In this document: piece by piece, positions 33,298 to 37,167 of the stretch | Layout: each line of letters opens with the position of its first letter | Numbering within the stretch: the first letter of the stretch is position 1 | From: Nitrospirota bacterium | Lineage (GTDB): Bacteria; Nitrospirota; Nitrospiria; 2-01-FULL-66-17 | DNA length: 63,482 nucleotides | Reading direction: 5' to 3' | Assembly: GCA_040757335.1 (NCBI GenBank) | Contig: JBFLXB010000021.1 | Location: 1 to 63,482 of the forward strand | Made by a program: the position numbers and the translations under genes | Notes under the pieces: generated by a model | The model's database searches: none | Seen by the model: only the letters and a program-made list of their open reading frames with translations | Told to the model about the DNA's origin: nothing

Positions 33298-34077
33298 TCA
33301 AGTCAATTCGCTCGGTTCACCCATCGAACCGGTCGCCACGGACGCGGCATCGTCTCGGATAATCCGCGCCCGTTCTTCGTCGCTGAGGTGCGCGCGGACC
33401 CAGAGGTCAGGCCGCCGACGGGAGGTTTCCCGCAACGACTGTTCCCGCCGCCATCGACGAATCTCCTCATGATGACCGGACAGCAACACCTCGGGCACCC
33501 GCATGCCGCGGAACTCCGCGGGGCGGGTGTACTGGGGGTATTCGAGCAGCCGTTCCACGAACGACTCTTCACGGGTCGACTGGGGGTCGCCGAGCACACC
33601 GGGAACCAGCCGCGTGGTGGCGTCCAGCATCGCCAGCGCCGCCAACTCTCCGCCTGTCAACACATAATCGCCGATCGAGACCTCTTCCCACGGCGCCGTG
33701 CCGTGGATGCGCTCGTCCACCCCTTCGTAGTGACCGCACAAGAAGGTGAGCCGCCGGGTTTCACGGCTCCACGCTTCAGCGACATCGTGGGTAAAGAGCC
33801 GCCCGCGCGGCGACGTCAACACCCAGTGCCTGGGCTGCGCATCGACTCGAAGGGCGTCCACGGCGCGGGCAACCGGTTCGACTTTCAAGACCATGCCGGC
33901 GCCGCCCCCATAAGGAACGTCGTCCACCGTGCGGTGACGATCTTCGGTGAAGTCCCGCAAGTCGATCACGCGCACCGCCAACCGCCCGAGCTCGCACGCG
34001 CGCCGCAAGATGCTCGTCCCCAATACGGCCCGCAGCATGTCGGGGAACAACGTGATGATGTCACACTGCAGCGTCAT
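33298..34077 (-). CDS. trmD: tRNA (guanine-N1)-methyltransferase TrmD
   Basis: About 259 residues from ATG 34077 (an ATG at 34089 would add four residues). SPOUT knot: [19 protein letters not shown] at the start, [26 protein letters not shown], and [15 protein letters not shown] with [15 protein letters not shown]-like end ([11 protein letters not shown]). It makes m1G37 in tRNA. Overlaps the rimM 3' end. Confidence 0.97.
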
Positions 34078-34630
34078 CCAACCATCCATTCGGCGGCCGA
34101 ACCGTCACCCGACGCGTCTCACGATCGACACGGATCACGAGCTCTCGCACCAGGGGAAACAAGCGTTCGGTCCCGCCGTCGTCGAGCACCAACAGGTCGT
34201 ACGGTCCAGTGGACCACACGTCCCGCACGGTCCCAACGGATACGCCAGACTCCGTCGCCACCGCCATGCCCTTCAGTTCGTCGTAATAGAAGCGATCATT
34301 CTCCAATGGCGCGCGCTCGGACTCCTCAATCGCTAAAGCGCATCCCCGCCAACCGTCGACCGCGTCGATCGACGTACACCCCTGGAACCGGAGGGTAAGG
34401 GTCCCCCCCGACGCACCTTCGGCCCCGGCCAAGGTCACACGCACCGGCGGCTGGGCCATCACCCAGAAACCGGCTCCGACCTGAAACCGGCCCGGAACGT
34501 CGGACCACGATTCGGCTTTGACCGCGCCGCGAAGGCCAACAGGCCTCAACAGGCGAGCCACCATCACCGGTTCGCGAGGCCCAGATCGGGGTTCTTTCAC
34601 CCCTGCACTCGTCGGCGCCGCGTCGGTCAC
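34061..34630 (-). CDS. rimM: Ribosome maturation factor RimM
   Basis: 189 residues from GTG 34630, which overlaps the rpsP stop as GTGA. RimM N-terminal domain with VARLLRPVGLRGAVKAESWSD, then the PRC-barrel part with FYYDELKGMAV, VGTVRDVWSTGPYDLLVL and PLVRELVIRVD. It helps assemble the 30S head with S19. The first 20 residues before VMVARLL are not typical. Confidence 0.93.
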   Translation of the reverse strand: MTDAAPTSAGVKEPRSGPREPVMVARLLRPVGLRGAVKAESWSDVPGRFQVGAGFWVMAQPPVRVTLAGAEGASGGTLTLRFQGCTSIDAVDGWRGCALAIEESERAPLENDRFYYDELKGMAVATESGVSVGTVRDVWSTGPYDLLVLDDGGTERLFPLVRELVIRVDRETRRVTVRPPNGWLDDAAV

Positions 34631-34887
34631 ACCGCGCGCACGGATGGGGCTCCGACTCCGGCGCGCTTTAACAGCTGGCGAACCGTGGTCGTCATCTGTG
34701 CTCCCCGCTCCAACCAAGCCTTCGCCTTCGCCGCATCCACGCGGACCGCGGGAGGCTCGGGCAACGGATCATAGGTGCCCAACACTTCAATAAACCGTCC
34801 GTCTCGTGGCGACTGCGAGTCCGCCACCACGATGCGGTACAACGGTCGCTTGTGTCGACCGTGTCGTGCCAACCGAATCTTGACCAT
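34627..34887 (-). CDS. rpsP: 30S ribosomal protein S16
   Basis: 86 residues: MVKIRLARHGRHKRPLYRIVVADSQSPRDGRFIEVLGTYDP-type start and a short C-terminal tail. Standard S16. No KH-domain gene (khpA) follows it, although one often sits between rpsP and rimM. A pseudo-GGDEF gene lies 61 bases upstream. Confidence 0.98.
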   Translation of the reverse strand: MVKIRLARHGRHKRPLYRIVVADSQSPRDGRFIEVLGTYDPLPEPPAVRVDAAKAKAWLERGAQMTTTVRQLLKRAGVGAPSVRAV

Positions 34888-34948: not shown

Positions 34949-35791
34949 TTACTCCACTCGCTTGACCGCGTGTTTGGCCGCCTTGATCAAGCCCGCGTAG
35001 CCGTCGTTTGACACGGTGCCCACGCCGTACGAAACCGACAAATCGCCGCGCAACCGACCTTCGGCCTTCTGAGCCTTGAGTCTCGCCTCGATCCGAGACA
35101 CCAAACTCGCCGCACCGTCCGAATCCGTGTCGAGCAATACCATCGCGAACGCCGCGTGATCATACCGTCCCGCGATGTCAACCTTCCGAAGCGACGCACG
35201 GACCGCCTCACCGACCGCCCGGATGGCCTGATCGGCGTCCGGCCCGTCCAAGACCTCCCCGGACATGGAGACGACGACGGCCGCCAGCTTCCGTCGCTGG
35301 CGCTCGGCCAACTTGACCTCACGCCGATAGAGGTCGTCGAAGTAGGTTCGGGCGTAGAACCCCGACACCCGATCCACCCGATCGACCGACAGAATCTCCT
35401 CTTCGAGCGCAGCGCGATCTGTCACGTCTCGGATCAGGATCATGGCCAACGCTGACCCGTCTACCGCCTTCAACGGTACACACGCCGCCGGCGCGGTCTG
35501 TCCGCCGCGACCGGGCAAATTCACTTCGAGGACCGGACTCGTCTCCTGGCGCTCCAGCGCCGCCAGACCGGGGCAGGCCGTCTCGCACAGTTCGAACCCC
35601 TCGGCGTTCTGACACACCGCAACCTCGTTGCACACTCGCTGCCCCAACGCAGTGTCAGCCGAGCACGCGGTGAGCCGCTCAGCCGACGGGTTGAGGGCCA
35701 CGATGCGCAAGGCCCGGTCGATGACCATCACCCCGTCCGAGGTGTGTTGAAACAACTCTTTCACCCGTTCCCGCTCGATCTCGAACCCCAC
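34949..35791 (-). CDS. PAS plus degenerate GGDEF protein in the ffh-rpsP operon
   Basis: 280 residues from GTG 35791, which has AGGAGGG upstream on the minus strand. A PAS domain (about 10-120) contains four cysteines spaced C-x5-C-x8-C-x3-C (C54, C60, C69, C73). The C-terminal half (about 130-275) follows a GGDEF fold (SGFYARTYFDDLYRREVKLAERQ; DIAGRYDHAAFAMVL; SYGVGTV) but the GGDEF signature is replaced by RYDHAAF, so it should not make cyclic di-GMP. It could be a sensor or a nucleotide-binding regulator (inference). It lies 38 bases after ffh and 61 before rpsP on the same strand. Confidence 0.8.
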   Translation of the reverse strand: MGFEIERERVKELFQHTSDGVMVIDRALRIVALNPSAERLTACSADTALGQRVCNEVAVCQNAEGFELCETACPGLAALERQETSPVLEVNLPGRGGQTAPAACVPLKAVDGSALAMILIRDVTDRAALEEEILSVDRVDRVSGFYARTYFDDLYRREVKLAERQRRKLAAVVVSMSGEVLDGPDADQAIRAVGEAVRASLRKVDIAGRYDHAAFAMVLLDTDSDGAASLVSRIEARLKAQKAEGRLRGDLSVSYGVGTVSNDGYAGLIKAAKHAVKRVE

Positions 35792-35829: not shown

Positions 35830-37167
35830 TCAGGCGGAAAACAGTCTTGCCGCCAGGTGTCGGCCGCGTCCGGTCTTCAGCGTCTTCATCATCCGTTTGG
35901 CTTGGATAAACTGCCGAAGGAGCTGATTGACATCCTGAACCGTGGTCCCGCTTCCCCGGGCGATGCGTTTTCGGCAACTTCCGTTGATCACCTCGGGATG
36001 GCGCCGCTCGCGTGGCGTCATCGAGTTCACAATCGCTTCAACGCGCGCCAGATCTCGCTCCGGCGCGCTGCCCTCCAGGCGGCCGGTAAGTCTATCCCCT
36101 CCGGGAATCATCGCCAGCACGTCCGCGAGCGGCCCCAGCTTCTTGACCTGTTGGACTTGCGCCCTAAAGTCTTCCAGCGTGAACGAGTCGGCGTTGACCG
36201 AGTCGGCGATCCGCTGCGTGTCGGTTGCCGAAAATGCTTCGCGCGCTCGCTCGACCAATCCCTCTACATCACCCATCCCCAAGATCCGAGAGGCGACGCG
36301 ATCCGGGTGAAACGGCTCCAACGCCGTCAACGACTCCCCGGTCCCCAAATATTTGACGGGCTTTCCGGTGACCGCCAGCATCGACAACACCGCCCCGGCT
36401 CGAGCATCACCCTCTGTTTTCGTCAGCACAATTCCCGTCAATCCGATGCGTTGTTCGAACTGCTCAGCGATGGACAGGGCCGACTGACCGGTCATCGCAT
36501 CAGCCACCAACAAGACCTCGTGAGGAGCCACCACCTCGCGAATTGCCGACAACTCGGCCATGAGAGCGTCGTCAATCTCGAGACGACCCGCGGTGTCGAG
36601 GATCACGATATCCATGGCGAGCGCGTCAGCCTTGGCCACCGCGGCCCGACAAACAGCCTCTGGCGTCGTTTCCTCGCCAGCCACGTAAACCGGCACCGAG
36701 ATTTGCTGACCTATTACCTCGAGTTGCCTGACCGCCGCCGGCCGCTTGAGGTCCGCGGCGCCCAGCAGGACGCGTCGGCCGTTTGACGAGAAAACCCTGG
36801 CGATCTTTCCAGCCGTCGTGGTCTTGCCCGCGCCTTGGAGTCCCACCAGCATGATCACGGTTGGCGGGTTAGCCGCCAACTGGATGGCTCGATGCGAGTG
36901 CCCCATCAACGCCCCCAGCTCTTCCCAGACGATGGTCAAGACCTGTTGGCCGGGCGACAGACTTTGCAGAACGTTCTGCGCAAGCGCGCGCGGCTTCACA
37001 CGATCGATCAAACTTTTGACAACCTTATAGTGGACGTCGGCCTCAAGCAATGCCAGTCGGATGTCGCGAAGGGCTTCTGTTACCGCGGCTTCGTCCAACA
37101 AACCGCGGCGACGCAAGCGCTTGAACACGTTTTCAAACTTTTCCCTGACCCCGGTCCACACCGTCAA
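35830..37167 (-). CDS. ffh: Signal recognition particle protein Ffh
   Basis: 445 residues. N domain (about 1-90), G domain with GLQGAGKTTTAGKIA (P-loop), ADLKRPAAVRQLE and ILDTAGRLEID, and a Met-containing M domain with NGSCRKRIARGSGTTVQDVNQLL. It binds signal peptides with SRP RNA. The G4 region, normally TKLDGDARGGA, reads TKTEGDARAGA here; the nucleotide sequence confirms this. A TTGACT-N17-TAGACT promoter lies 120-150 bases upstream. Confidence 0.97.
   Translation of the reverse strand: MTVWTGVREKFENVFKRLRRRGLLDEAAVTEALRDIRLALLEADVHYKVVKSLIDRVKPRALAQNVLQSLSPGQQVLTIVWEELGALMGHSHRAIQLAANPPTVIMLVGLQGAGKTTTAGKIARVFSSNGRRVLLGAADLKRPAAVRQLEVIGQQISVPVYVAGEETTPEAVCRAAVAKADALAMDIVILDTAGRLEIDDALMAELSAIREVVAPHEVLLVADAMTGQSALSIAEQFEQRIGLTGIVLTKTEGDARAGAVLSMLAVTGKPVKYLGTGESLTALEPFHPDRVASRILGMGDVEGLVERAREAFSATDTQRIADSVNADSFTLEDFRAQVQQVKKLGPLADVLAMIPGGDRLTGRLEGSAPERDLARVEAIVNSMTPRERRHPEVINGSCRKRIARGSGTTVQDVNQLLRQFIQAKRMMKTLKTGRGRHLAARLFSA

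Follow-up and report, generated by a model that had tools for sequence, protein, structure and literature searches.

The ffh–rpsP interval of a Nitrospirota bacterium, read here on a contig of 63,482 nucleotides (the window), encodes a protein in which a PAS domain with four clustered cysteines is joined to a degenerate GGDEF domain, and 14 genomes, from three families in two classes, have an ortholog of this protein directly after ffh. The protein is tentatively regarded as a former diguanylate cyclase turned putative c-di-GMP-binding, cysteine-cluster sensor that is made together with Ffh and S16, a reading given somewhat less than an even chance. The most likely mechanism for it is that of a putative I-site c-di-GMP receptor with cysteine-cluster PAS input. 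A first-pass annotation had described a PAS/pseudo-GGDEF protein with RYDHAAF and a C-x5-C-x8-C-x3-C motif between ffh and rpsP, and this description is confirmed by profiles, positions and neighbours (Table 1).

Table 1. Coordinates of the PAS–pseudo-GGDEF gene, its parts and its neighbours on contig JBFLXB010000021.1
Feature	Coordinates	Strand	Remarks
PAS–pseudo-GGDEF gene	34949..35791	(-)	280 aa, GTG start, stop included, open frame
PAS domain and linker, residues 1-130	35402..35791	(-)	Pfam profile, AF2 model, PAS fold
Four-cysteine motif C54-x5-C60-x8-C69-x3-C73	35573..35632	(-)	DNA of residues 54-73
Degenerate GGDEF domain, about residues 140-280	34952..35374	(-)	Profile and fold match
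RYDHAAF replacing R-x-GG(D/E)EF, residues 209-215	35147..35167	(-)	
RxxD at I-site position, R202-K-V-D205	35177..35188	(-)	
R233, 31 residues past R202	35093..35095	(-)	Arg in 14/14 orthologs
ffh, upstream neighbour	35830..37167	(-)	TIGR00959 at 6e-161
rpsP, downstream neighbour	34627..34887	(-)	TIGR00002
rimM	34061..34717	(-)	Frame as listed overlaps rpsP; true start probably further in
trmD	33298..34089	(-)	

An aggagg sequence lies shortly upstream of the GTG start, and both domains of the protein exceed their Pfam cut-offs, GGDEF (PF00990) at 3.1e-12 with 46-47 bits against a curated cut-off of 23.8 and PAS_4 at 4.2e-8 with 33.8 bits against 23.1. By score, the gene ranks last among the 32 GGDEF matches of its genome. 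The gene order is ffh, PAS–GGDEF, rpsP, rimM and trmD, all on one strand; 38 bases separate the gene from ffh on its upstream side, and 61 bases separate it from rpsP on its downstream side. No terminator-like site was found on the minus strand from ffh to rpsP, in a scan that gave seven sites in all versus 6.8 in shuffled sequences. A promoter-like site before ffh (37315-37287), one of three found versus 1.1 expected, is not relied on.

Three families carry the gene: the window's own (f1), a second family of the window's class (f5), which is taken to be Nitrospiria within the phylum Nitrospirota, and a family of another class (f23). Their orthologs, numbering three, three and eight, respectively, are all on the ffh strand, and rpsP comes next in 13 of the 14; after the ortholog of one f5 genome (G015) no rpsP match was found, the contig ending 326 bases past the gene. 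At the border with ffh, the f1 orthologs leave gaps of 38, 54 and 70 bases, the f5 orthologs overlap by 31 bases in all three cases, and the f23 orthologs overlap by four bases in three of eight cases, the others standing 0, 28, 45, 146 and 345 bases away. By match positions, rimM directly follows rpsP in f1, and several other families have room for an extra small gene between the two. Additionally, one ffh match (G297:C67:14708-16009) contains an in-frame TAA, which may reflect an assembly error or a broken copy.

The extent of this arrangement was gauged at several levels. Among 58 relatives searched at 1e-20, eight gave matches, namely the three f1 and three f5 genes beside ffh and two genes, in G031 and G042, that sit away from ffh. 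Within the class, ffh was found in 190 of 196 genomes, and 60 loci at the ffh 3' end were chosen to cover the families; five of these, from f1 and f5, have the gene (six counting the window) and 55 lack it, with rpsP lying 40-219 bases past the end of the ffh match in 54 of the 55. At one locus (L081, G023:C64), ffh is followed by coaE-like and TauE/SafE-like membrane protein frames, both named by eye, and rpsP is not nearby. A search of 395 genomes of the phylum with six orthologs as queries gave some match at 1e-20 in 177, with a step in score from 7e-58 to 5e-36; above the step were four genomes already known and eight of f23, and below it matches were inspected individually for loci L121-L138. 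All eight f23 orthologs lie between ffh and rpsP. The class of f23 comprises ten genomes in the collection, and the gene is in all eight that bear ffh, the other two being 77 and 78% complete and having no ffh match at 1e-60. From the phylum search, 25 genomes of other families were picked, and 24 of them have ffh; the gene is absent from all 24 loci, and rpsP adjoins ffh in 19. Five loci of other families (L207, L210, L215, L216 and L218) have no rpsP match within about 2 kb after ffh. Other phyla were covered by a one-genome-per-species scan reaching only close relatives, which returned two f1 orthologs and one ordinary-looking GGDEF protein (L011). The ffh-PAS-rpsP synteny that the first-pass annotation proposed to look for is found in three families of two classes, and the gene is absent at all 79 further phylum ffh loci examined (55 in the class and 24 elsewhere in the phylum).

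The protein occurs in three states: f23 largely keeps the cyclase site and has the four cysteines, f1 has lost the site and kept the cysteines, and f5 has mostly lost the site and lost the cysteines; the I-site positions are unchanged across all three. Within f1, dN/dS is 0.14-0.17, a rough value since dS is 0.96-1.76; taken separately, the PAS half gives 0.10-0.17 and the GGDEF half 0.14-0.24. The f5 proteins gave no value, its synonymous sites being saturated. An Ffh tree was built from 51 rows, f23 being represented by seven of its eight genomes; on its weak backbone, the gene-bearing families need three changes. A single origin by clade was set aside, as the three families do not form one clade in this weakly resolved tree, and with that topology both an ancient presence followed by many losses and a transfer of the block would fit.

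For the GGDEF half, the control set was drawn from the same genome: 30 of its 32 matching loci were fetched, and the 21 GGDEF domains in which a motif could be recognised were kept. The other nine were dropped for want of a new motif in the central part, so conservation of the motif columns is partly a matter of choice. The signature position of the window protein reads R209-Y-D-H-A-A-F215, and S175, S177, D211, H212, A213 and A214 stand where the controls have D, D, G, G, D and E, positions that presumably serve catalysis and metal binding; Asp is present in 20/21 and 17/21 controls at the positions of S175 and S177. The window protein thus has neither the GG(D/E)EF motif nor the metal-binding Asp of an active diguanylate cyclase. 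Of 35 columns conserved in the controls, five are kept in all six f1 and f5 orthologs (D140, R202, D205, R209 and L219), and the chance of R202 and D205 both being among the five is 0.017 by a post hoc test. The f23 proteins keep 19 of the 35 columns in 7/7 cases; their motif reads GDDEF, GEDEF, GDDEY or GNDEY, Asp, Glu or Asn standing in for the second Gly, and they retain the first metal Asp, the Asn, the first Gly, the D-E pair and the C-terminal Lys. The motif Glu is kept in all three f5 proteins, so the f5 site is not wholly erased.

A study of PelD (PMC2170427) places the I-site at an RxxD nine and six residues ahead of the GGDEF motif. The same arrangement relative to the GGDEF position is present in 13/13 aligned orthologs, and the fourteenth (L119) also has its R and D together with the third Arg. 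The equivalent of R233, which we take to hold the place of PleD R390, is Arg in 13/13 aligned orthologs versus 11/21 controls. RxxD by itself was rejected as proof of c-di-GMP binding, since 18/21 controls have it, the R202 and D205 positions each being conserved in 19/21; being so common in the genome, it may have been retained for structural reasons. The argument for the I-site lies in retention where most other columns went, not in presence, and the kept positions support predicted c-di-GMP binding without demonstrating it. The 'nucleotide' mentioned by the first-pass annotation as a possible ligand can be sharpened to c-di-GMP, bound at the putative I-site of a protein whose cyclase site is gone.

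The AF2 model of the full-length protein (13 sequences) reached a pLDDT of 75 and a pTM of 0.50 and was weak over the cysteine loop, with block means of 65, 56 and 51 for residues 51-80; the PAS domain alone reached 82.7 and 0.78. Neither model contains a cofactor. The PAS model aligned with 5xgb at Z 13.0 (rmsd 3.3, 116 aligned), the top Z among the matches listed. Residues 137-280 aligned with 5euh, a c-di-GMP-bound GGDEF domain, at Z 17.3 (rmsd 2.3, 143 aligned), and the GGDEF half with 2wb4 at Z 15.5 (rmsd 2.4, 138 aligned).

Cysteines occur in the window protein at residues 43, 54, 60, 69, 73 and 104, and those of the motif (54, 60, 69 and 73) are followed directly by Pro. In the 3.56 Mb genome, the exact DNA pattern of this spacing with the Pro has a single match, at the window gene, and the reversed-pattern control has none; over 13 genomes, the Cys-spacing pattern gave nine matches, three of them the window gene and its two f1 orthologs, versus five for the control. 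Eleven PAS domains were aligned: three from f1, seven from f23 and one (L015) picked for having the motif, the cysteine-free proteins of f5 (three) being excluded. The four cysteines are four of the ten invariant columns, and identity to the query outside f1 is 27-32%. All four are present in 3/3 f1 and 7/7 fully read f23 proteins, and in the eighth f23 protein (L119) masked bases hide one of them. All four are lost in 3/3 f5 orthologs, and cysteine input is therefore not essential to the gene. The interpretation first offered, of a sensor tied to translation or protein targeting and possibly binding metal, Fe-S or a nucleotide, is in part supported: instead of being absent from all relatives with unconserved cysteines, the gene is in 14 genomes and its cysteines are in 11, and the synteny and the cysteines of two families speak for it, while the cysteine loss in f5 and the absence of the gene at 79 loci speak against it.

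Outside the ffh interval, the sole motif carriers among the loci fetched in the phylum check were L015 (met again as L121) and L017. The former (L015:1474-2430, in G031) is a PAS–GGDEF protein with the same cysteine spacing and RYGGEEF, an intact-looking cyclase, beside a clpX-like frame; the latter (G042:C1, about 937643-938359, minus) has the same spacing and RYGSEAF, with CBS-domain-like and universal-stress-like neighbours, the neighbours in both cases being named by eye. The idea that the motif is general in PAS–GGDEF proteins was rejected, as it is absent from the four that were opened (H1, H3, H5 and H6) among the 15 plasmid-borne matches listed for the L015 PAS domain.

The closest PDB sequence to the PAS part is 9wex, a 'Sensor histidine kinase' (2e-4), which has C-x2-C-x11-C in the corresponding stretch, a spacing that we take to be NreB-like, and two of whose cysteines align with C60 and C73. 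Its absence from the best 50 Foldseek and best 50 VIA matches of the PAS model is no evidence against the likeness. The window spacing does not fit C-x2-C-x11-C-x2-C, presumably that of NreB-type Fe-S PAS domains. The PAS domain of NreB holds a [4Fe-4S] cluster (PMC4601167), and a PAS survey reports an Fe-S cysteine motif in nine domains of one cluster, in passages that give no spacing (PMC10468136). Metal or Fe-S binding by the four cysteines is a plausible prediction, at most a fair guess. Two other candidates were discarded: the HydS-type PAS-linked Fe-S cluster, which precedes the PAS domain (PMC13104023), and the sulfide sensor NreB of B. licheniformis, for which heme use is proposed (PMC9918477) and which is of no help here.

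In PelD, R367, D370 and R402 are needed for c-di-GMP binding, and the paper sets the PelD motif apart from the cyclase I-site (PMC2170427). The window protein is like PelD in combining a GGDEF-like fold without the catalytic motif with an RxxD pair and a third Arg; however, the third Arg is at +35 there and +31 here, the I-site spacing is exact here, the four-Cys PAS domain and the gene neighbours differ, and c-di-GMP binding is here only predicted. SgmT is reportedly another GGDEF-derived c-di-GMP receptor (PMC3509222). PleD-type diguanylate cyclases with an I-site are alike in fold (2wb4) and RxxD spacing, whereas the active site is lost here. NreB likewise has a PAS domain with four cysteines, and 9wex is NreB-like in spacing; the differences are C-x5-C-x8-C-x3-C here versus C-x2-C-x11-C and a GGDEF output versus a histidine kinase. 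RimK and RlmI are reported to be c-di-GMP-linked ribosome modifiers (PMC4741518, PMC11894153). The common element with these is a connection of c-di-GMP with the ribosome, although they are enzymes whose substrates are a ribosomal protein or rRNA and are likened by description, not sequence. The titles and abstract openings listed in searches of open-licence papers contained no account of the ffh–PAS-GGDEF–rpsP arrangement.

Several other readings bear on the location and the GGDEF half. The gene may be an ordinary PAS–GGDEF regulator riding on a housekeeping promoter, with the usual c-di-GMP output and no tie to Ffh or the ribosome; its absence from 55/55 other-family class loci and from 24/24 other phylum loci examined is in keeping with this, as are the comparable four-Cys PAS–GGDEF proteins that G031 and G042 encode at other sites, but the location is constant in three families of two classes and extends to the 31-base overlap in f5, and this reading, too, is given somewhat less than an even chance. 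That the pseudo-GGDEF domain is purely a protein-interaction scaffold, its RxxD being structural and no nucleotide bound, is judged rather unlikely: the conservation of R202 and D205 in other GGDEF domains would suit it, as would the retention of D140, R209 and L219, which are not I-site residues, yet R202 and D205 were kept while 30 of the 35 control-conserved columns were not kept in all six f1 and f5 orthologs, and the Arg at R233 rises from about half of the controls to every aligned ortholog. It is more doubtful still that the f23 form makes c-di-GMP and that the copies in the window's class are its remnants. The f23 proteins do hold the catalytic-site residues named above among their 19 kept columns; in the window protein, however, the two metal-site Asp, the two Gly and the two acidic residues have all been lost, and the low dN/dS of f1 speaks against decay. 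Odd motifs can be active, as reported for the AGDEF of VCA0965 (PMC3974145).

On the PAS side, the four cysteines may form a thiol switch or a structural zinc site instead of a sensory Fe-S cluster, a reading that is distinctly possible, if still the less probable outcome. Short-looped as they are, they could hold Zn, the ligand is not settled by sequence, and zinc is reportedly bound by the WalK PAS domain (PMC6624279); against this stands 9wex, the best PDB sequence neighbour, with its NreB-like cysteine set in the matching stretch.

Under the preferred reading, that of a retired cyclase serving as a c-di-GMP receptor, the ancestor would have been a diguanylate cyclase under PAS control whose gene settled between ffh and rpsP. 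The window protein, judged by its active-site residues, would be unable to make c-di-GMP, and its GGDEF fold would still bind the nucleotide via the old inhibitory I-site. The four cysteines of the PAS domain may hold a metal ion or Fe-S cluster that serves as a redox- or oxygen-type input, and the two signals would be combined and passed on by protein contact. Co-production with Ffh and S16 is suggested by the shared direction and the short or overlapping borders, while one transcript and the target are presumed; the tie to Ffh, translation or targeting is positional only.

Since so many other ffh loci lack the gene, its persistence in three separate families calls for an explanation. One far-reaching possibility, to which little probability is assigned, is an integrator that would read redox via a PAS Fe-S cluster and c-di-GMP via the retired cyclase and would act on targeting, or on ribosome maturation linked to S16 and tRNA modification, by direct contact with the products of its own operon; if true, this would be a new route from c-di-GMP to the SRP and ribosome machinery. 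With three family states side by side and the I-site constant, these genes are well suited to testing how cyclases turn into receptors. Should the protein act on the partners encoded in its operon, c-di-GMP and redox sensing would be tied to protein synthesis.
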